Assembly (NCBI GenBank): GCA_040756435.1
Contig: JBFLZD010000038.1
Span: 1-36,159, forward strand
DNA: 36,159 bases
Direction of reading: 5' to 3'
From: Spirochaetota bacterium
GTDB lineage: Bacteria; Spirochaetota; UBA4802; UB4802
Shown: positions 10,223 through 21,743 of the stretch, one piece after another
Numbering within the stretch: position 1 is the first letter of the stretch
Layout of the letters: every line of letters begins with the position of its first letter
Made by a program: the position numbers and the translations under genes
Notes under the pieces: model-generated
Databases searched by the model: none
What the model was told of the DNA's origin: nothing
The model's input: the letters and a program-made list of their open reading frames with translations, nothing else

Positions 10223-11413
10223 TTATACTGTATATCCCCAATCCTGCTGTATTAAACTCAAGCATACACCGTGGGCTATTGATTCAGTTTTTATGCTTTG
10301 AAATTCCATTAATGCCCGTTTATACATTGAAATATATCCTGTATCATGAAATATGTCTTTTATATGAAAATCTATTTGGGCAACAGGATCATTGTATATT
10401 TCAAAGAGATCCCCAGTAAGAAGTACATAATCCGGTGAAAAAACATTTATCACATCAAGTAATGCTTCAGAAAAAAACTTCAGTGCTGTATCAAGCTTTT
10501 CAAATATACCTTCGGTTCTATTGGTATAATGGTTGTTAAGTTTTGCTATGACATTATCGTAACATTCATTTTCATCTATGGCATTTTGCTGCTGTAATAA
10601 CTTGACAAATGCTTCATAGGAAAAATAGCAATCCAAGCAGCCACTCCTTCCACAGATACATCGCTGGTTCTCATCACAGACTTTTATATGGCCAATTTCC
10701 CCTCTACTATTAACTATCGCCCCCTTATAAATTAATCCAACAGCACTTGCTGCACGTGCTGAAACAACCATTATCCTGTCATAACGCTGATTAATATCAG
10801 ACGTAGATAGAATATATGTAATCATGCTGCTGATATTATGGTCAAAAAATATTCGTGTATTGGGGAATTTAGCGGATAAAAGTTCATTAAAATTAAAATC
10901 CTTTAATTGTGGCATGAGTGTATATGATCGTAAGATTCCATTTTTGGTATCAATATCGCCAGGTACTGTGCAACCTACAGCAACAAGATTGTTTGTAAAC
11001 ACAGGATTTTTTGATAACACTTCATCAATTTGTTGTAGTATGACACGGGTAAATTCCTCTTTTGAAATACTGCTGGAAATCCCAACTTTTGCTTTTGCTA
11101 AAACTTTGTTGCTGAAACTAACGATAGTTGTGTATACTGCTTTCTGATTGAATGTGATTCCTAAATATACCTGCTTATCATGATTTAATGTATAAAATAA
11201 CGCTTTACGACCTTTTTCCTTTTGTTTTCCTTCAGTAGATACTATTATACCGGTATTTTTTAAAATTTTAAAAGAGGTCATGATGGTATCCATGGAATAC
11301 CCGGAATACCGTTTTGCTTCAGCTTTTGATAATATAGGGTGTTGTCTGAAGATATCGACTATATGCTTGCGTTTATTTTCTTTTCGTCTGTTGATTTTTT
11401 CGCCATGTGCCAT
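10223..11413 (-). CDS. ROK-family transcriptional repressor, probable regulator of the sulfoquinovose genes
   Basis: The 396-residue protein has an N-terminal winged helix (about 15-75; ILSKAEAKRYSGYSMDTIMTSFKIL) and a C-terminal sugar-kinase-like ROK domain. The ROK signature is clear: GEIGHIKV, then the zinc-binding CICGRSGCLDCYFS, and the segment VAVGCTVPGDIDTKNG. The ATP-binding DxGxT of sugar kinases is replaced (LGITFNQKAVY), which fits a regulator that binds a sugar but does not phosphorylate it. It is divergent from the symporter gene, and ATCGATAACGAT lies in the shared intergenic region. By family logic it represses the locus until SQ or an SQ metabolite binds; the effector is inferred. 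A good ribosome site (AGGAG, 7 bases) supports the start. There is no gap between its stop and the phosphatase stop. Confidence 0.92.
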   Translation of the reverse strand: MAHGEKINRRKENKRKHIVDIFRQHPILSKAEAKRYSGYSMDTIMTSFKILKNTGIIVSTEGKQKEKGRKALFYTLNHDKQVYLGITFNQKAVYTTIVSFSNKVLAKAKVGISSSISKEEFTRVILQQIDEVLSKNPVFTNNLVAVGCTVPGDIDTKNGILRSYTLMPQLKDFNFNELLSAKFPNTRIFFDHNISSMITYILSTSDINQRYDRIMVVSARAASAVGLIYKGAIVNSRGEIGHIKVCDENQRCICGRSGCLDCYFSYEAFVKLLQQQNAIDENECYDNVIAKLNNHYTNRTEGIFEKLDTALKFFSEALLDVINVFSPDYVLLTGDLFEIYNDPVAQIDFHIKDIFHDTGYISMYKRALMEFQSIKTESIAHGVCLSLIQQDWGYTV

Positions 11414-11563: not shown

Positions 11564-13003
11564 ATGAATCAAGAAAGAAAAATAACTTTTAAAAATTTAT
11601 TATCATATGGCGTTGGCGATATTTTTGGTGGAGGTTCATTTGTTGTTATAAATCTTTTATTCATATATTTCTTAACAGATATTGCAAAACTCAATCCTGC
11701 ACTGGCTGGACTTGTTGTATTGGCAGGCAAGGCATGGGATGCAATCAGTGACCCAATCATGGGGTATATCTCTGATACTACCAGGTCAAAATACGGTAGA
11801 CGCAGAATATTCTTTTTACTTGGGATATTGCCAATCATACTTAGCTTCATTGCCATGTGGCTGCCTTTTTCATCTGATAGCCAGATAATAAAATTTATTT
11901 ATTATGCCTGTGCTTATGTATTTTTCAGTACAGCCTTTACCATGGTGATGATTCCATATTCGGCACTCAATGCTGAGATGACACGAGAATATAAAGACAG
12001 GACGCGCCTATCAGGAGCACGGTTGATCTTTTCACAGATATCATCCCTCATATCAGGTACCGTTCCCAAGATGGTTGTTGATGCATTTACGGATAAGGGT
12101 GAGGGGTTCCTTGTGATGAGTATTATATTTAGTATCTTTTTTGCATTGCCATGGATTATTGTATTTTTTGGAACATGGGAACTTCCTGATGTAAAGGTTG
12201 AAAATAAATCTCTTACCGATTTTTTTAAAAATCTCTTAGTTATATGGACAAACAGATCATTCAGAGTTCATATAGGGTTGTATATCTGTGCATATTCAGC
12301 GCTTGATTTAATCATGGCAATGTTTATTTATTATCTTACCTACTATATACAAAAGCCACTTATTTTCACCAGGTGTCTTGGTGCTATGCTTGTTACACAG
12401 GTTTTGTTTTTGCCGGTATATGTCTTTATAGCAAATAGAAAGGGCAAGGGCTTTTCATATCGCGTAGGGGTCAGTGTATGGGCGATAGCTCTTGTGAGTA
12501 CTCTTTTGTTTGATAGCGCCACTCCGCTACAATATATCATTGCACTTTCAGTGCTTATGGGGGCTGGAATGTCGGCAGGAACAATGATCCCATGGGCAAT
12601 ATTGCCTTCAGTGACCGATGTTGGTGAGCTTATAACGGGAAAGCAACAGGCAGGGGTGTATGCAGGTGCCATGACATTTATACGTAAATTGGTACAGGCA
12701 GTTGTGCTTGCTGTATTTGGTTTAGTGCTGCAAACAATTGGATATAAAGCAAATACTGTTCAATCCCCTGAAACATTAGAGTATCTACGCCTGTTGTTTG
12801 CACTGGCACCATCAACGCTTATGCTCTGTGGCATTCTAATTTCCCTAAAATTTAAAATTACACCTGTAACCCATCCAATTCTTATTCAAGAAATTAACAG
12901 GTTAAAATCCGGTGGTAGCAAGGATATGGTTGAACCATTTGTTAAAAAAATTTGTGAAGTATTAACAGGATATAACTATGAAAATCTTTTTAAAAAGCAA
13001 TAG
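11564..13003 (+). CDS. GPH-family (MelB/YihO-like) sugar:cation symporter, probable sulfoquinovose or SQ-glycoside importer
   Basis: The 479-residue protein has about 12 membrane helices and the glycoside-pentoside-hexuronide:cation symporter pattern. The early YGVGDIFGG is followed by WDAISDPIMGYISDTTRSKYGRRR (about 59-82), the hallmark loop with the cation-site aspartates. YihO, the transporter of the E. coli SQ operon, belongs to this family, and here the gene heads an operon with an SQ isomerase and an SQase. Uptake of SQ or sulfoquinovosyl glycerol is therefore the best inference, but substrate specificity cannot be read directly from the sequence. An AGGTG ribosome site precedes the ATG. 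The next gene follows within 9 bases. Confidence 0.9.
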   Translation: MNQERKITFKNLLSYGVGDIFGGGSFVVINLLFIYFLTDIAKLNPALAGLVVLAGKAWDAISDPIMGYISDTTRSKYGRRRIFFLLGILPIILSFIAMWLPFSSDSQIIKFIYYACAYVFFSTAFTMVMIPYSALNAEMTREYKDRTRLSGARLIFSQISSLISGTVPKMVVDAFTDKGEGFLVMSIIFSIFFALPWIIVFFGTWELPDVKVENKSLTDFFKNLLVIWTNRSFRVHIGLYICAYSALDLIMAMFIYYLTYYIQKPLIFTRCLGAMLVTQVLFLPVYVFIANRKGKGFSYRVGVSVWAIALVSTLLFDSATPLQYIIALSVLMGAGMSAGTMIPWAILPSVTDVGELITGKQQAGVYAGAMTFIRKLVQAVVLAVFGLVLQTIGYKANTVQSPETLEYLRLLFALAPSTLMLCGILISLKFKITPVTHPILIQEINRLKSGGSKDMVEPFVKKICEVLTGYNYENLFKKQ

Positions 13004-13012
13004 GTGAAAATC

Positions 13013-14329
13013 ATGAAAGAAATAACTGTTGGTGTTGTATGTTTTGCTCGTAAAACCTTTGATTACAATGCAGCCCAAGAAATCTATATTGCTATACAAT
13101 CACAGTTAAAAAAGATTAAAGCGGTACAGTGGCATTGTTACAATGAACTTGTATATGAAGTAGAAGACGCACATAAGGCTATTACTTTTTTAAAAAAGAA
13201 CAATATTGATGCACTTGTATGTATCAGTGGAACATTTCATTTGGGGCATTTAGCTCTGGAATTGATAAAGCATGTCAGTGTGCCGGTGATGCTGTGGGGT
13301 CTTCCTGAATTACCGTATGATGGCGGCAAAATACGGCTTAATTCAATTTGTGGCGTAAATTTAGATGCCAGCAATCTTTATAAAGCAGGGATACGTAATT
13401 ACCATGCACATATTGGCAATACTATTGATACGGACTGGATTGGTGCCATACGTATCATTTCTATGCTCAAAAATGCTAAAATTGGGTTAGTTGGCTATCA
13501 CGCACATGGCTTTTTTAATATTGATACTTGGCATCCTGCACTGTATGCACAGTGTGGCACAATGATTGAACACTATGAATTGCAACATATATTCAATTAT
13601 CCTGTGAATCAGCAATACAAAGATCAGTATGCTGATATCATTGATAGTAATTTTGATACAGGTGATATTAATACCTCACAAAAACAAAAGGTTGCAGAAT
13701 TAAGTTCCAGGCTACACAGTTTTATGGAAGATAATAACCTTACCGCTATGGCAATACGGTGCTGGCCTGAATTTGCCGCTGAATTTGGCATTGCGCCATG
13801 TGCAGCCATGTCGCTGGTACAGGCTCAAAATTTTGTCATTGCCTGTGAAGGTGACGTTGATGGGGCACTATCTATGTTAGCTCACAAAGCGCTGGGTACG
13901 CAAACGCCATTTTTATTTGATTTTTCGCAGGTAAATCTTGAAGAAAATTTTGCATTGCTGTGGCATTGCGGTGTTGCGCCTTTCACACTCAAAGATACCA
14001 CAAGCACAGCGTCGCTTGATACGTATTTTGCTGCAGGCAAAGGTGTCACGGCAGGTTTTGTTTTAAAACCAGGTGATGTGTCAATTTGCAGATTTGATTT
14101 TGATGGCAGTAACTATCGCTTATTATTATTGAAAGCTCATGGCGTTACAATGGATAAATTGCTAAAAGGAACATATTTAAAAGTTATCTTTGATGTTCCT
14201 GTAAAAAACGTTCTTGATACTATTATTTATAATGGTATTGCACATCACGCGTCTATGGTATATGGTGATTTTGTAAAACCGTTTGAGATAGCAGCTCGCA
14301 TTAAAAACTGGGAGATAGTAACATGCTAA
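13013..14329 (+). CDS. sqvD: FucI/AraA-like aldose-ketose isomerase, probable sulfoquinovose isomerase
   Basis: The 438-residue protein has the L-fucose/L-arabinose isomerase-like architecture. It starts with a Rossmann-like half (VGVVCFARKTFDYNAAQEIY; LVCISGTFHLGH). The later metal-site region has AIRCWPEFAAEFGIAPCAAMSL and CEGDVDGALSML, followed by a late His pair (GIAHHASMVYGDF). Glu in WPEF, the acidic residues of CEGDVDG and the late His are the likely metal and acid/base ligands by analogy with FucI. SQ isomerases of the SFT and sulfo-TK pathways (SqvD/SftI) belong to this superfamily, and the next gene is an SQase, so conversion of SQ to sulfofructose is the likely reaction. I chose the ATG at 13013 over the GTG at 13004 because AGGTGA lies just before it. 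The last 7 bases overlap the GH31 gene. Confidence 0.83.
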   Translation: MKEITVGVVCFARKTFDYNAAQEIYIAIQSQLKKIKAVQWHCYNELVYEVEDAHKAITFLKKNNIDALVCISGTFHLGHLALELIKHVSVPVMLWGLPELPYDGGKIRLNSICGVNLDASNLYKAGIRNYHAHIGNTIDTDWIGAIRIISMLKNAKIGLVGYHAHGFFNIDTWHPALYAQCGTMIEHYELQHIFNYPVNQQYKDQYADIIDSNFDTGDINTSQKQKVAELSSRLHSFMEDNNLTAMAIRCWPEFAAEFGIAPCAAMSLVQAQNFVIACEGDVDGALSMLAHKALGTQTPFLFDFSQVNLEENFALLWHCGVAPFTLKDTTSTASLDTYFAAGKGVTAGFVLKPGDVSICRFDFDGSNYRLLLLKAHGVTMDKLLKGTYLKVIFDVPVKNVLDTIIYNGIAHHASMVYGDFVKPFEIAARIKNWEIVTC

Positions 14330-16308
14330 AAATTGAACACAGTGATGCATCGTTTTCACTATATTACAAAAATCGATGTATAGTGAAACACTCGTTTGAT
14401 AAGCCCTGCATAGCGGTAGGAAACGGCAGCGCTACGTATACCATGAAAGAAGGTAACTTTAAACTGAAAGACAAAGTTATATCAAAACAGTATTTGAAAC
14501 ATTTTACTGTTAGAGAAAATAATAACACCATAACAATACAATTAGAAGATGCTATTCGGTTAACCATACAAGCAGATACATATTGCACTGTTTCTATTGA
14601 AGCAAAAAAACCGTTTAATAGATTTTGGCTTAGTTGTGTTGCTGATCCTTGTGAACATATTTACGGTTGCGGTGAACAGTTTTCAAAATTGGATCTAAAG
14701 AAAAAGAAAGTTCCCCTATGGGTACAGGAGCAGGGAGTAGGGCGGGGACATGATCTGATAACATTTTTAGCTACTGTATTGCATGGCGCAGGAGGAGCAT
14801 GGTACACTACATATTATCCGCAACCCACGTTTGTATCAAGCAGCAATTACTTTATCCATTGCAATGCGTCATCATTTGCGGAATTTGAATTTAAAAAGAA
14901 AGAGCATATACTTCATTTCTGGCAGATTCCTGAATCAGTGGTGTTTGGTGTGTATGAAAAATCAACTGATTGTGTAAAAGCGGTGGGTGATTTATTGGGA
15001 CTACAGCCACGGCTACCACAGTGGGTCCACGATGGTATGTGGATAGGAGTTCAGGGTGGCACCGATGTTGTGAAGAAAAAATTAAAAGATGCACTTGATG
15101 CGGGAGTTAAGGTTTCTGCACTGTGGGTGCAGGACTGGGTTGGCCGACGAATTACCTGGTTTGGCAAGAGGCTTTTTTGGAACTGGAAATATAATGACGA
15201 TTCGTATCCTAATCTGCCATTATTTATACAGGAACTATCGCACAACAACATAAAATTTTTGGGGTATATCAACTGCTTTTTAAATTCTGAGGGTGACCTG
15301 TATAAAGAGGCTGTTACCAAAGGGTATTTGGTGCAAAATCGGGATGGCACAGTACGAACGTTTGATACCACCGGTATAATTGCTGGCACGATAGATCTTA
15401 CCAATCCCCAAACGCGGGATTGGATTAAAAATGTTATTAAAGAACATATGATTGGCATTGGCCTTGGTGGCTGGATGGCCGATTTTGGTGAATATCTGGA
15501 AACTGATGTAAAGCTTTATTCAGGTGAATCTTCCGAATTGTACCACAACAAATATCCGGCAGAGTGGGCGCGTGTCAATTATGAAGCTTTAGAAGAAGCA
15601 GGTAAACTAGGTGAGATAGTTTTTTTTACACGGGCAGGGTATACAGGAACATCTCAATACAGTACGTTGATGTGGGCAGGAGATCAGCTTGTTAATTGGA
15701 GCATGCATGATGGATTGGCTTCGGTAATACCTGCAGGTATTTCATTGGGATTTTGCGGAGTGGGATATTTTCACTCGGATATTGGTGGATATACAACAAT
15801 AGGTTGGATAAAACGAAAAAAAGAGCTTTTTATGCGCTGGGCAGAGTTAGGTGCATTTACAGCAGTAATGAGGACACACGAAGGTAACAGACCTGATGTA
15901 AATTGGCAATTTGACAGTAACAAAGAAACATTACAGCATTTAGCAAAAATGACAAAAGTTCATACTGCCTTAAAACCATATTTTGAGCATTGTAAGGATG
16001 AGTATCATACTGATGGGCTACCGCTAATGCGTCATCCATACATCCATTATCCTGATGATGACAAACATCATTCGTTGCAGTATCAATTTCTACTGGGTCG
16101 TGATGTAATGGTAGCACCTGTGTACAAACCACGGAAAAAGAAGTGGAAAGTATATCTTCCACAGGATGAATGGGTACACCTATGGTCAGGAAAAGAATAT
16201 AGTGGTGGATGGGTTACGGTTGATGCTCCGTTAGGGCAACCACCTGTTTTTTACAGGAAAGCTTCACAGTTTAAAACTATTTTTAAAGCAATACAGGATA
16301 TTGCGTGA
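14323..16308 (+). CDS. yihQ: GH31 sulfoquinovosidase (YihQ-like)
   Basis: The 661-residue GH31 enzyme has a beta-sandwich N-terminus and the catalytic barrel from about residue 225. GWMADFGE supplies the nucleophile D387 and WAGDQ the acid/base D454. They are 67 residues apart, exactly as in E. coli YihQ (D405 and D472). The YihQ residues known to recognise SQ also align without any gap: Q288 with Q270, R301 with R283, W304 with W286 (in GKRLFWNW) and Y508 with Y490. This makes hydrolysis of sulfoquinovosides (for example sulfoquinovosyl glycerol from plant and algal sulfolipid) the strongly preferred function over alpha-glucosidase or xylosidase. No signal peptide is seen, so it acts in the cytoplasm after uptake. 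Its start overlaps the isomerase gene (ATGCTAA). Confidence 0.95.
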   Translation: MLKIEHSDASFSLYYKNRCIVKHSFDKPCIAVGNGSATYTMKEGNFKLKDKVISKQYLKHFTVRENNNTITIQLEDAIRLTIQADTYCTVSIEAKKPFNRFWLSCVADPCEHIYGCGEQFSKLDLKKKKVPLWVQEQGVGRGHDLITFLATVLHGAGGAWYTTYYPQPTFVSSSNYFIHCNASSFAEFEFKKKEHILHFWQIPESVVFGVYEKSTDCVKAVGDLLGLQPRLPQWVHDGMWIGVQGGTDVVKKKLKDALDAGVKVSALWVQDWVGRRITWFGKRLFWNWKYNDDSYPNLPLFIQELSHNNIKFLGYINCFLNSEGDLYKEAVTKGYLVQNRDGTVRTFDTTGIIAGTIDLTNPQTRDWIKNVIKEHMIGIGLGGWMADFGEYLETDVKLYSGESSELYHNKYPAEWARVNYEALEEAGKLGEIVFFTRAGYTGTSQYSTLMWAGDQLVNWSMHDGLASVIPAGISLGFCGVGYFHSDIGGYTTIGWIKRKKELFMRWAELGAFTAVMRTHEGNRPDVNWQFDSNKETLQHLAKMTKVHTALKPYFEHCKDEYHTDGLPLMRHPYIHYPDDDKHHSLQYQFLLGRDVMVAPVYKPRKKKWKVYLPQDEWVHLWSGKEYSGGWVTVDAPLGQPPVFYRKASQFKTIFKAIQDIA

Positions 16309-16708: not shown

Positions 16709-17719
16709 ATGCCCTTGAAATTTACATATTCAATAAACCAGATTAATAACACCATTTACAAAATTTCATTACCGCTACCGGGTTATCCTCCATACATAAA
16801 TGTATATCTTTTTAAAGGGGAAGTTAATACGCTATTTGACACGGGGACATCCTGGACATGGCGATTATTACGGAGTGCACTGAAAGAATTAGGGCTTCAG
16901 TTTTCCGATATTCATCAGGTTATTCCTTCACATGGGCATGTTGACCACTATGGAGCAGCATATGCAATAGCTAAAAGAAATAAACATGTTGAAGTAATAA
17001 CCCATTATGCAGATGCAAAGCGTATAGAAGAAGGGATTTACGATAAACCTTCTGTCATGTTGCAATTCATTGAATCTATGGGTGTACCAAAGCCATTAAT
17101 AGTGCCATTGGTTTTTCTTGATTTAACATTTAAATCAATGGGTCATAGCGTTACTGTTACCCGTAAAATAATGGATGATGAATATCCATTACAGGCTGGG
17201 AATTACAATGCAAAATTAATCTTAACACCAGGGCATTCTAAAGGCGCTATGTGTTTGTATATTGAAAAAGAAGGTTTTTTATTTTCTGGTGATCACATTG
17301 TACCTGGTGTAAAGCCAATTATTTTAGCCGGTTTTGAACCAAATACATCATTTCCCGTTGCCCAAAGTCATAATATCTTTCATACTTCATTGAAAAAGAT
17401 TGAAAAATTAAGCCCAAAGTACATTTTTCCTGCCCATGGCGAACCTTTTCAGGAAAAATTGAATCGTTTGATAGTTAAATATCAGAAAGTATATCAATTG
17501 CGAAAGAAGCGCATGTATAATTTATTATTACATAACGATTATACCGTCTATGGACTGGCACGACAGGTATTCAAAAATCTAAAAGGGATAAATCTGGTGC
17601 TCGATTTATATTTGTCATTATCAGAAACATATACTCATCTTGAATCAATGTGTGAAGAGGGCGATGTAATAAAATATAATTTTGATAATACTTATTATTA
17701 TACTGCAACATTATTGTAA
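16709..17719 (+). CDS. MBL-fold metallo-hydrolase with C-terminal winged-helix-like region
   Basis: The 336-residue protein has the metallo-beta-lactamase fold. Metal ligands are visible as SHGHVDH (H75, H77, D79, H80), TPGHSKGAMCLY (H176), FSGDH (D195) and FPAHGEP (H243). After residue 250 comes a helical region with NDYTVYGLARQVFKN ... YTHLESMCEEGDV, like the winged helix found in LACTB2-type members. Related proteins cleave thioesters, esters or nucleic acids, so the substrate is open. Its place between the SQ glycosidase and the sulfonate transporter/transketolase genes suggests a role in sulfosugar metabolism, but it lacks the shared operator and sits behind a repeat block, so it could be independent. 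The ribosome site is poor. No sulfur-specific feature is visible. Confidence 0.85.
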   Translation: MPLKFTYSINQINNTIYKISLPLPGYPPYINVYLFKGEVNTLFDTGTSWTWRLLRSALKELGLQFSDIHQVIPSHGHVDHYGAAYAIAKRNKHVEVITHYADAKRIEEGIYDKPSVMLQFIESMGVPKPLIVPLVFLDLTFKSMGHSVTVTRKIMDDEYPLQAGNYNAKLILTPGHSKGAMCLYIEKEGFLFSGDHIVPGVKPIILAGFEPNTSFPVAQSHNIFHTSLKKIEKLSPKYIFPAHGEPFQEKLNRLIVKYQKVYQLRKKRMYNLLLHNDYTVYGLARQVFKNLKGINLVLDLYLSLSETYTHLESMCEEGDVIKYNFDNTYYYTATLL

Positions 17720-17785: not shown

Positions 17786-19231
17786 ATGAAACTATCGCAC
17801 AAAAAAACGTTATACCTGTTTTTAGCTCTTGGGATTGCTTTTGCAATTGGTTTGTTGCCAATTGAATATTGGCACAATACCGGCAGGGATACCATACAAT
17901 TAACTACTCAGGGTAAATATTCATTGGCGGTATTAGCGTTTGCAGTGATAGCGTGGGTAACTGAAATAATGCCTTTTGCTATAACAGGATTGTTTTCACT
18001 TTCGTTACTGGTTATAACGAGTTGTGCAAATCTTCCGGATCTGGTAAAAGATGGTTTTGGCAATCAGGTTATTGTTTTTTTTATTGGGGTTATGATTATT
18101 GGAGCTATCGTTAATGAAACATCCTTTGTAACAATAATCACTCAAAAGCTTTATAAACGGTATTGTACGCAACCTAAAACATTAATTTTAATTATACTGA
18201 CAATTGGTATGCTATTAGCGGGATTTGTAACCGAAATGGCTGCTGCTGCTATGGTGTTGCCATTTGCAGTTTCTATCTTAAAGAAAGCAAAAATAGAGCC
18301 TTTGAAAGATAATTACGGTAAAGCAATGATGATAGCCTGTGGCTGGGGACCGGTAATAGGTGGCATTTCAACTCCTGCAGGTTCGGGTGCTAATCCGCTT
18401 ACGGTAGGATTTTTAAAGGATTTAGCGCATATTGATCTATCGTTTGCACATTGGATGGGTATTGGTTTTCCAGCAGCGCTTTTGATGCTGCCGTTTGCAT
18501 GGTTTATACTGGTAAAAACGTTTAATGTGGAGAAAGTACGTTTACATATAGATTCTGAAAAAAATGAGAATGTACATATTTCATCAACTGATGTAATAAT
18601 TGGCGCATTGTTTCTACTAACAATAGTGTTATGGATAGTTGAGCCTGTATTGCATAATCTATTTCCATCATTACAGTTCATAACGATGTCATTTGTTGCT
18701 ATAACAGTTGCATGTTGTATGTTTTTGCCACCATTTGCACCGTTAAGCTGGCATAAAGTTGAACATTCTATTAATTGGGGAGCAATTGTATTAATTGTTT
18801 CAGGGTTGGCACTGGGAACAACAATATATAAAACGGGAGCCGCCAGGTGGCTAGCATGGGTACTATTTAAAAATCTTAATCTTTTACATCCAGTTATTAT
18901 GGTTTTTACAGTAGTCCTGGGAGTTTCCATTATAAAAGTTATGTTTTCAAGTAACACAGTAACTGGTATCATAATGGTACCGTTACTCATAGCTTTGTCG
19001 GGCACTATTGGGATTGATCCGGCAATGGTGGCAATACCTGCAGGATTGACGTCATCGCTTTCTTTTATACTGGTAACATCAACGCCAACGATTGTGATTC
19101 CGTATACTGCAGGATATTTCACAATTGCGGATATGGTGAAGCCGGGTATATATATGACCATCGTTTCATCGATATGTGTTACTATCAGTTTTTTAATTTT
19201 TGGTTCTTTGTTTAACATCATTACATGGTAA
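17786..19231 (+). CDS. DASS/SLC13-family anion transporter, possible sulfonate carrier
   Basis: The 481-residue membrane protein has the two-repeat design of the divalent anion:sodium symporter family. The first substrate hairpin motif is GISTPAGSGANPL (193-205) and the second is FSSNTVTGI (387-395). Family members carry dicarboxylates, citrate or sulfate. In this locus, regulated by the SQ operator and leading the transketolase and isomerase genes, it may export the C2 sulfonate end product (sulfoacetate or isethionate), or import a sulfonate. Export is not the usual DASS direction but anion exchange is known in the family. The direction and substrate are inference. There is a weak ribosome site (GGTAA). 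Confidence 0.85.
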   Translation: MKLSHKKTLYLFLALGIAFAIGLLPIEYWHNTGRDTIQLTTQGKYSLAVLAFAVIAWVTEIMPFAITGLFSLSLLVITSCANLPDLVKDGFGNQVIVFFIGVMIIGAIVNETSFVTIITQKLYKRYCTQPKTLILIILTIGMLLAGFVTEMAAAAMVLPFAVSILKKAKIEPLKDNYGKAMMIACGWGPVIGGISTPAGSGANPLTVGFLKDLAHIDLSFAHWMGIGFPAALLMLPFAWFILVKTFNVEKVRLHIDSEKNENVHISSTDVIIGALFLLTIVLWIVEPVLHNLFPSLQFITMSFVAITVACCMFLPPFAPLSWHKVEHSINWGAIVLIVSGLALGTTIYKTGAARWLAWVLFKNLNLLHPVIMVFTVVLGVSIIKVMFSSNTVTGIIMVPLLIALSGTIGIDPAMVAIPAGLTSSLSFILVTSTPTIVIPYTAGYFTIADMVKPGIYMTIVSSICVTISFLIFGSLFNIITW

Positions 19232-19300
19232 AACTTTAAATTAAAAGTAAAATGTAAAAAAATTTATTGTATGCGATAGTTACTGTTTATGGAGGAATTC

Positions 19301-20143
19301 ATGAGTACAATATCAACAGAACAATTAGAACGCCTTGCAAAAGAGTTCAGATATGTAATAACCGACATGATATGCAGAGCCGGTTCAGGTCATTTAGGTG
19401 GTTCATTAAGCTTGGTGGAGATAGTTACCACACTCTATTATCGTATCATGAATAGTAAGCCTGATAATCCTGCCTGGGAAGATCGTGACAGACTGGTCTT
19501 ATCAAAAGGACATGCGGGAACAGTTTTATATGTTGTACTTGCATATTTAGGTTTTTTCCCAAAAAGCTGGCTTAAAACATTGAATCAAAATGGCACAAAC
19601 CTACCAAGCCATGTTGATCACAACAAAACACCAGGCATAGATATGACTGCTGGTTCATTGGGACAGGGTTTATCCTGTGCTTGTGGTATGGCGTATGCAG
19701 CTAAGCTAAATAAAAAATCGTATAACGTTTTCTGTATTATTGGTGATGGTGAAAGCAATGAAGGACAAATTTGGGAAGCTGCTATGTTTGCAGGCCATAA
19801 TAAACTGGATAATCTTATAGTAATTTGTGATTACAACAAGATGCAGATTGATGGCAAAACTGATGATGTGATTACCTTAGAACCATTAGCTGATAAGTGG
19901 CGTGCATTTAATTTTGAAGTGTTTGAAATGGACGGTCATAACTGGGATGACATATATTCTACCATTAATAAAGCAATTGCAGTAAAAGGAAAACCTGCAA
20001 TAATTATTGCCCATACAATAAAAGGAAAAGGCAATGCAGAGGTAGAGAATAAAGTGGCAAGCCATAATATTAAGATTAATGACCAGTCAGACTATGACAA
20101 GTATATGAAAGGTTTGGGTTATACCATGGAGTTGCCATATTGA
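19301..20143 (+). CDS. sqwG: Transketolase N-terminal subunit, probable 6-deoxy-6-sulfofructose transketolase
   Basis: The 280-residue protein is the thiamine-diphosphate-binding half of a split transketolase. Motifs include GSGHLGGSLS (about 28-37), SKGHAG with a catalytic-loop His, and the ThDP/metal motif IGDGESNEGQIWEAAMFAGHNKLDNLIVICDYN ending in the metal Asn (about 146-178; given here in two runs: IGDGESNEGQIWEAA, then MFAGHNKLDNLIVICDYN). The C-terminal subunit is the next gene. Two-gene transketolases exist for ordinary pentose metabolism, but with an SQase, SQ isomerase and RpiB paralogue alongside, this pair fits SqwGH, which cleaves sulfofructose and later 4-deoxy-4-sulfoerythrulose with GAP as acceptor. 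The ATG at 19301 follows GGAGGA; an ATG at 19289 overlaps that ribosome site and is rejected. Confidence 0.88.
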   Translation: MSTISTEQLERLAKEFRYVITDMICRAGSGHLGGSLSLVEIVTTLYYRIMNSKPDNPAWEDRDRLVLSKGHAGTVLYVVLAYLGFFPKSWLKTLNQNGTNLPSHVDHNKTPGIDMTAGSLGQGLSCACGMAYAAKLNKKSYNVFCIIGDGESNEGQIWEAAMFAGHNKLDNLIVICDYNKMQIDGKTDDVITLEPLADKWRAFNFEVFEMDGHNWDDIYSTINKAIAVKGKPAIIIAHTIKGKGNAEVENKVASHNIKINDQSDYDKYMKGLGYTMELPY

Positions 20144-20183
20144 TTGTTATGATATTCATGCTTAAAAAAATTATTACACACAC

Positions 20184-20248
20184 TGTCATCCTGAATTTAA
20201 TTCAGGATCTCAGTCTTTTAGTTGGTTTCGAATCTAGTTCAGAATGAC
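20184..20248. repeat. Dispersed palindromic repeat between the transketolase subunit genes
   Basis: Outer arms GTCATCCTGAA and TTCAGAATGAC nearly complement each other. Inside the left half, CCTGAATT and AATTCAGG form a perfect 8-bp hairpin around one T. The GTCATCCTGAAT...TTCAGGATCT pattern is a widespread intergenic repeat type. It lies within an operon and may tune the ratio of the two subunits. Confidence 0.7.
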
Positions 20249-20286
20249 GCTGGAGATGAAATTTAATTTTTATAGGGAGATAAAAA

Positions 20287-21230
20287 ATGAGCTATCATGA
20301 TATGGAAATGAGGGCAGTATATGGATTAACATTATGCGAATTGATGGAACAAAATAAAAAGTGTTGTGCTTAGAAGCTGACTTAAGTAAAGCATCAGGAA
20401 CCAATCCAGCAGTATGCACAGCATTCCCGGAAAATTTTATAAACGTTGGTGTTGCCGAAGCAAATATGATAGGGTTAGCAGCAGGTTTGGCACGTGAAGG
20501 GAAAATTCCATTTTGTGCAAGTTTTACCTGCTTTGCTTCACGCAGAGTATATGATCAGATTACCATCAGTGTGGCGTATGCCAATACCAATGTTAAGATA
20601 GTTGGGACTGCGCCAGGCATAACACAGGGACCAAACGGTGGGACCCATATGGACTTTTTGGATTTAGCGATAATGCGTGCCATGCCCAATATGCACGTGT
20701 ACAGCCCCTGTGATGTATATGAACTTCGTGCTGTAATGAAGTATATGGCAGCACATCATCAGCCAACCTATATGCAGTTATTGCGGCCTAAAATGCCTGT
20801 GATATTCAATGAAAATTTTGTATTTGATCCACAAAAGGCAACCTTGCTCCATGAAGGTGGGGATGTTACCATAGTAACAACAGGGTATACAACACACCTT
20901 GCAAATAAGGCTGCTGAGATTTTACAAAAAGAAGGAATAAAGGCAGATCATCTTCACTATAGTTCCATAAAACCATTTGATGAAGACTTACTTATACAAT
21001 CAGCAAAGAAGACTGGTTGTGTTGTTACTGTAGAAAATCAAAATATCATTGGTGGATTAGGTGGGGCTGTCTGTGAAGTATTAAGTGAAAAACTTCCTGT
21101 AAAAGTAAAGCGCCTTGGTATACACGATGCTTTTGGTGAAGTTGCTACAGAAGAATATTTGCTCAATAAACATGGATTTAATGTTGAGCATATTGTTAAG
21201 GCTTGTAAAGAACTAATAAAAAGTAAATAA
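20287..21230 (+). CDS. sqwH: Transketolase C-terminal subunit, interrupted by a one-base frameshift
   Basis: Translation from the ATG at 20287 (AGGGAG ribosome site upstream) gives MSYHDMEMRAVYGLTLCELM then EQNKK, and after three more codons meets TAG at 20371. The reading frame from 20361 continues VLCLEADLSKASGTNP to the normal end. Joined, ELMEQNKK-VLCLEADLSKASG is exactly the expected family sequence. One missing A in the A-run at 20356-20360 explains the break. The rest is intact: INVGVAEANMIGLAAGLA with the catalytic Glu at about joined residue 59, the pyrimidine-binding region and the C-terminal domain (DVTIVTTGYTTHLANKAAEI). The partner is the N-terminal subunit just upstream. It may be an assembly error, a recent inactivating mutation or ribosomal slippage on AAA-AAG. 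Confidence 0.88.
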
Positions 21231-21269
21231 AATTATCATACTGGTATGTAAACCAAAAGGAGAATCATT

Positions 21270-21743
21270 ATGCATTTTGTTATAGGTTCAACCAGAGCTG
21301 GGTTACAGTTAAAGCGACAAATTATCAACTATCTTATTAAAAACGGACACCAGGTTGATGATGTGGGGATGAAGGATGAAGAGCATTTTGTGCCGTATCA
21401 TATTGCAGCTGCTAATGTAGCATCGTTAGTATCTCAGGGAAAGTATGAAAAGGGCATTGTTATATGTGGTACCGGAGCGGGTAGTGCAATTGTTGCTAAT
21501 AAATTTAAGGGTGTCTATGCAGTGCATTGTACTAATTCATTTGAAGCAAAAAAGGCATCAGCTATTAACAATGCAAATGTACTTGTATTAGCTGAATGGC
21601 TTACACCTGCAAATCATGCATTTGAGATAATCAATGACTGGCTAACAACACCATTTGGAAGCGGCTTTGAAGAAGAATGGCAAAAATTTTTAGCTAATTG
21701 CATTGAAGAAATCAAAGATATGGAAGAAAAAAATTTTAAATGA
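21270..21743 (+). CDS. sqwI: RpiB/LacAB-family isomerase, probable 4-deoxy-4-sulfoerythrose isomerase
   Basis: The 157-residue protein has the RpiB fold pattern. The catalytic cysteine is C66 in GIVICGTGAGS, at the same number as in E. coli RpiB, followed by IVANKFKGVYAV. Other active-site positions differ from pentose-phosphate isomerases. GSDHAG is replaced by GSTRAG, the HNDANVL motif by INNANVL (ring-opening His lost), and the C-terminal phosphate-binding arginines are absent. This fits a different substrate without a phosphate. Together with SQ genes and a split transketolase the call is SqwI, which converts 4-deoxy-4-sulfoerythrose to the corresponding erythrulose. GGAG lies before the ATG. 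It is the last gene of the unit; no clear terminator follows. Confidence 0.85.
   Translation: MHFVIGSTRAGLQLKRQIINYLIKNGHQVDDVGMKDEEHFVPYHIAAANVASLVSQGKYEKGIVICGTGAGSAIVANKFKGVYAVHCTNSFEAKKASAINNANVLVLAEWLTPANHAFEIINDWLTTPFGSGFEEEWQKFLANCIEEIKDMEEKNFK

Follow-up and report, generated by a model that had tools for sequence, protein, structure and literature searches.

Described relatives of the isomerase

The closest described relatives of the protein analysed here are the SqwI isomerases of MSTE9, Acholeplasma and Faecalicatena (PMC9594981, PMC12890257), PF02502 proteins encoded directly after split transketolase genes in sulfoquinovose (SQ) clusters. This layout is that of the sulfo-transketolase pathway, whose proposed 4-deoxy-4-sulfoerythrose isomerase is SqwI (PMC9594981, PMC13219744, PMC11659671); SQ breakdown along this pathway has been shown in the genus Faecalicatena (PMC11659671). 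Descriptions of SqwI go back to 2021, so that a protein of this type is not new in kind; its activity has never been directly measured, because its substrate isomerises spontaneously (PMC9594981). No other step of the pathway is as poorly characterised.

In the ribose-5-phosphate isomerase RpiB, His99 opens the furanose ring, His10 and the equivalents of Arg133 and Arg137 hold the phosphate and Arg110 is also located at this site, while the H102N and D45N substitutions of Leishmania RpiB (His99 and Asp42 in E. coli) abolish activity on ribose 5-phosphate (PMC4783025, PMC3755991). The D-erythrulose-4-phosphate isomerases (EryI/DerI, NF051858) also have the RpiB fold and use an acyclic four-carbon substrate, with His99, His10 and Arg137 changed. 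A further RpiB-fold isomerase, DhuI (4u8f), acts on a phosphate-free anionic sugar (uronate) and provides a precedent for this fold working without phosphate.

Sequence and fold of the isomerase

The DNA examined was a stretch of 36,159 nucleotides, referred to below as the window. The features of the isomerase gene are the following.

21270..21743, + strand: SqwI-type isomerase, PF02502, 157 amino acids
21285..21302, + strand: GSTRAG (residues 6–11) replacing GSDHAG, with Thr and Arg at E. coli Asp9 and His10
21465..21476, + strand: CGTG, including the retained catalytic Cys66
21564..21566, + strand: Ile99 codon, at the position of the ring-opening His99 of RpiB
21597..21599, + strand: Trp110 codon, at the position of the phosphate-site Arg110 of RpiB
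21666..21680, + strand: Phe133 to Trp137 codons, at the positions of Arg133 and Arg137 of RpiB

Residues were numbered by E. coli RpiB, using a sequence 100% identical to an annotated rpiB. Translation gave GSTRAG at residues 6–11, ICGTG with Cys66 and INNANVL at residues 99–105, and together with the alignment this confirmed the retained Cys66 of CGTG, the change of GSDHAG to GSTRAG and the Ile in place of the ring-opening His, as given in the original prediction. The full set of active-site differences from E. coli RpiB was D9T, H10R, D42P, R83Y, H99I, R110W, R133F, H134E and R137W, from which the predicted list had omitted R83Y, R110W, D42P and H134E. Position 43 is Tyr, and Thr68 and Asn103 are retained.

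Profile searches placed the protein in PF02502 (LacAB_rpiB; 130.4 bits against a curated cut-off of 24.7, E=5.7e-38) and below the cut-offs of the narrower models. The RpiB equivalog TIGR01120 gave 104.7 (cut-off 138.65), the D-erythrulose-4-phosphate isomerase equivalog NF051858 gave 76.6 bits (cut-off 240) and the LacA/LacB models gave at most 72.3 bits (cut-off 164), the gene being a single one with no lacAB pair. When the AlphaFold2 model of the protein (pLDDT 97) was searched with Foldseek, the top ranks were RpiB structures, namely 3he8 (C. thermocellum RpiB; TM 0.88/0.93) and 2vvr (an H99N mutant of E. coli RpiB). The window protein has the fold, Cys66, CGTG, Asn100 and Asn103 in common with RpiB (3he8, 2vvr), but all of the phosphate-site residues, Asp42 and His99 are replaced. 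DhuI was also returned; it differs in its length of ~210 amino acids, its 18–19% identity and its uronate rather than sulfonate substrate.

The fold, and the RpiB subfamily models that were still the best general matches, would agree with drift of an ordinary ribose-5-phosphate isomerase. This reading is scarcely credible given the TIGR01120 score and the absence of the residues needed for ribose 5-phosphate activity (PMC4783025), the positions of His99, His10, Arg110, Arg133 and Arg137 being occupied by Ile, Arg, Trp, Phe and Trp. As His99 and Asp42 are essential for that activity and both are absent, the protein should not be a good ribose-5-phosphate isomerase. An intact, ordinary RpiB is encoded elsewhere in the window genome, and at least one further PF02502 gene was present in all 12 of the other SqwI or SqwI-like genomes tested. 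The protein belongs to a branch of five genomes whose members have the altered residues in common, apart from Val99 in the most distant member and either Glu or Asp at residue 134. Since these residues are common to the five members and dN/dS between congeneric species of the branch is ~0.05, the altered active site is not a product of decay; a pseudogene or drift of canonical RpiB was rejected on the dN/dS and the separate RpiB gene.

The sulfoquinovose gene cluster

The genes surrounding the isomerase in the window are listed below.

10223..11413, - strand: ROK-family regulator, divergent from the operon
11564..13003, + strand: GPH-type MFS sugar:cation symporter
13004..14329, + strand: sulfoquinovose isomerase-like (SftI/SqvD); NF048012 E=1.4e-68, under the curated cut-off
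14323..16308, + strand: GH31 sulfoquinovosidase, YihQ family; PRK10426 893 bits against a cut-off of 553
16709..17719, + strand: metallo-beta-lactamase-fold hydrolase, retained in the window clade
17786..19231, + strand: DASS-family anion transporter, possibly a C2-sulfonate exporter
19289..20143, + strand: N-terminal transketolase subunit, SqwG-like
20288..21230, + strand: C-terminal transketolase subunit, SqwH-like, frame broken

The PF02502 gene adjoins the split transketolase genes (19289–21743), and the cluster contains both a sulfoquinovosidase (PRK10426) and an SQ isomerase-like gene, for whose product the sub-threshold NF048012 was the sole NCBIfam match. The sulfosugar setting that had been predicted was borne out by this sulfo-transketolase cluster and by the position of the protein within the SqwI clade. 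Since the window carries genes for a sulfoquinovosidase, an SQ isomerase-like protein and a split transketolase, the protein is taken as the SqwI of the published pathway; locus, clade and signature all identify it as SqwI, and in the sulfo-transketolase route it quite probably serves as the aldose-ketose isomerase. This identity draws on fold, motifs, locus, clade and purifying selection, and from it we infer the substrate, the reaction and candidate sulfonate-holding residues.

In the proposed sequence of reactions the split transketolase would take a C2 unit off 6-deoxy-6-sulfofructose to give 4-deoxy-4-sulfoerythrose. With Cys66 as the base, SqwI would convert this acyclic sugar by way of a cis-enediolate to 4-deoxy-4-sulfoerythrulose. 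Removal of a second C2 unit from the sulfoerythrulose by transketolase would leave sulfoacetaldehyde. The ribose-5-phosphate pocket (His10, Asp42, Arg83, Arg110 and Arg133) would be rebuilt for a shorter, sulfonated chain, with the further loss of Asp9 and gain of Arg at position 10 in the window branch, and with a substrate that forms no ring, His99 would not be needed.

Some features count against the SqwI identity, namely a branch of length 1.51 without Asp9, a frameshift in the transketolase and the lack of an adjacent SqwF, SqwD or SqwKL gene. The C-terminal transketolase subunit begins at ATG 20288 and is one base short near 20360 relative to three congeners (L058, L059, L060), in which the frame is intact; the frameshift may be either a sequencing error or real. 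No SqwF, SqwD or SqwKL gene adjoins the window SqwI, and a homologue of SqwD (sulfoacetaldehyde dehydrogenase) was not found in a search of the window genome, where five Fe-ADH matches, all unlinked to SqwI, are not decisive for the sulfoacetaldehyde step.

In the window as in the three congeners, the metallo-beta-lactamase-fold gene precedes the DASS transporter gene, and it adjoins the sulfoquinovosidase gene wherever the fetched stretch covers the latter. We know of no role for this gene in sulfoquinovose breakdown.

Family signature and phylogeny

Homologues were sought in the GTDB contig collection and in genomes of the same order (46) and phylum (393). The family sample was made up of the 90 distinct ones whose PF02502 gene has a transketolase half no more than 2.5 kb away. 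These span Spirochaetota, Chloroflexota, Clostridia and Acholeplasmatales and include Faecalicatena contorta (L155) and Faecalispora (L163); for 63 of them the fetched stretch also encodes a homologue of GH31 or SQ isomerase. The joint loss of His10, Arg83, His99, Arg110 and Arg133 was seen in all 90 transketolase-adjacent homologues and in none of 25 ordinary RpiB proteins, which at the level of sequence marks the active-site losses as a family signature and not chance. Asp42 and His134 are likewise absent throughout the 90, Trp110 is invariant and position 66, where resolved, is always Cys. The signature, with Cys66 kept, supplies concrete residues for testing and helps to separate SqwI from RpiB genes, RpiB being the label under which SqwI is annotated. 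For the window protein, this amounts to a sound family assignment together with residues that can be tested; it does not reveal an enzyme of a new kind.

The ligand proposed for the sulfonate fared less well across the family. Position 10 is most commonly Leu (63 of 90), followed by Lys (16), Arg (8) and Gly (3), and the idea that the Arg of GSTRAG is a general sulfonate ligand was accordingly rejected. The predicted absence of the C-terminal arginines holds for the window protein (Phe133, Trp137) but not family-wide, as a Lys or Arg aligns with Arg137 in 85 of the 90, in a region where an insertion makes the alignment uncertain. It is plausible that SqwI recognises sulfonate; candidate ligands are the Lys/Arg kept at 137 in most members and, in the window branch, Arg10 and Lys95 instead.

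A tree of 81 proteins joined the window branch to the SqwI clade, which includes the Faecalicatena protein L155, with moderate support (91/83). The SqwI clade was nested in a larger clade lacking His99 (100/99), with the EryI-like proteins on the RpiB side. In the best tree SqwI and EryI thus lose His99 independently, yet convergence is not claimed since a single clade of all His99-less proteins was not rejected (p-AU 0.265). Two SqwI-like proteins, L167 782–1231 (Hydrogenedentota) and L156 1018–1494 (a Spirochaetes MAG), fell outside the main SqwI clade, and their short contigs carry no transketolase.

The GSTRAG branch

The window branch is fast-evolving, with 68–92% identity among its members. 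Compared with described SqwI, with which it has in common Cys66, Ile/Val99, Trp110 and the loss of Arg83 and Arg133, the branch carries Thr9 where they have Asp, Arg10 where they have Leu or Lys, Trp137 where they have Lys or Arg and Glu109 where they have Gly, and it has no adjacent SqwF or SqwD/SqwKL gene. The change of Asp9 to Thr is found only here, Asp9 being present in 85 of the 90 SqwI and in all ordinary RpiB sampled. The branch is also alone in pairing Arg10 with Trp137, and has Ser or Ala at position 97 where other SqwI have Lys or Arg.

The long branch and the loss of Asp9 mean that the substrate of the window branch could have shifted. The loss of this sugar-contacting residue hints at a different, related sulfosugar intermediate or a changed stereochemistry, and the gene cluster also differs from those of other Spirochaetota, with a metallo-beta-lactamase gene and without SqwD/SqwKL. 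We regard such a shift as unlikely, because none of the sulfoquinovosidase, SQ isomerase-like and split transketolase genes is missing, and from the upstream chemistry one would expect the same intermediate, 4-deoxy-4-sulfoerythrose.

Loss of His99 and a probable acyclic substrate

The original prediction held that the pattern of losses matches an acyclic, phosphate-free substrate. The first part is well explained by the chemistry, as 4-deoxy-4-sulfoerythrose has no C4 hydroxyl for furanose closure and the loss of His99 tracks four-carbon substrates, including those of the curated D-erythrulose-4-phosphate isomerases; it fits an acyclic tetrose substrate. Erythrose 4-phosphate and sulfoerythrose are alike in lacking a free C4 hydroxyl. 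The second part does not follow as argued from His10, Arg133 and Arg137, since the phosphate-using erythrulose-4-phosphate isomerases lose or vary these too. Two Rhizobium controls scoring above the NF051858 cut-off (256.6 and 257.7) have Ser99, Ser10 and Asn137 and keep Arg83, Arg110 and Asp9. The loss of His10 and Arg137 is thus no proof of phosphate loss, the loss of arginines was discarded as evidence for a phosphate-free substrate, and the altered active site alone does not prove that sulfonate has replaced phosphate. Judged from the alignments, SqwI can be told apart from the erythrulose-4-phosphate isomerases only by its loss of Arg83 and Arg110, so the comparison may separate an acyclic four-carbon trait (His99) from a possible sulfonate trait (Arg83, Arg110).

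The same comparison raises the alternative that the window protein is a tetrose-phosphate isomerase of the erythrulose-4-phosphate type, its losses reflecting a short acyclic phosphosugar and not a sulfonate. The curated enzymes likewise lack His99, His10 and Arg137, and the tree allows one origin for all His99-less forms. This alternative is very unlikely in view of the low NF051858 score, the sulfoquinovose cluster, the Arg83 and Arg110 that the curated members keep and all SqwI have lost, and the position of those members in a separate clade on the RpiB side of the best tree.

The original prediction treated the same substitutions in RpiB proteins outside sulfosugar loci as evidence against it, and some were encountered. 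Across 391 genomes of the class to which Faecalicatena belongs, a pattern scan for Ile, Val or Met at position 99 found ten matches, one due to chance and nine genuine PF02502 genes. Five of the nine are SqwI genes, with transketolase and sulfoquinovose genes alongside; the remaining four (L216, L217, L218 and L221) are in other loci, three of them beside split transketolase genes, so that loss of His99 is not specific to sulfosugar loci. L221 comes closest to the full signature, with Ile99, Trp110, Tyr83 and Phe133 but Glu9, Met10 and Ala42, and the five-position signature is therefore not strictly confined to sulfosugar loci either. Tentatively, the GSTRAG branch may represent a distinct SqwI active site, in which Asp9 is lost and Arg10 and Lys95 may replace Lys/Arg at 97 and 137 for the sulfonate, and loss of His99 may be a usable marker of acyclic-substrate PF02502 enzymes, including those of undescribed split-transketolase pathways such as that of L221.

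The His99-less gene of L221 (7446–7946) lies by a split transketolase and a glycyl-radical dehydratase-like enzyme with its activase, and those of L217 and L216 also lie by split transketolase genes; no sulfoquinovose genes were detected in these three loci, which possibly encode an undescribed pathway. L218 and L222, the latter from the family search, are near ribose-type transporter genes or regulators. An EryI-like isomerase with Ser99 is plasmid-borne in Raoultella (L172, 1989–2453), where it adjoins transaldolase and transketolase genes.
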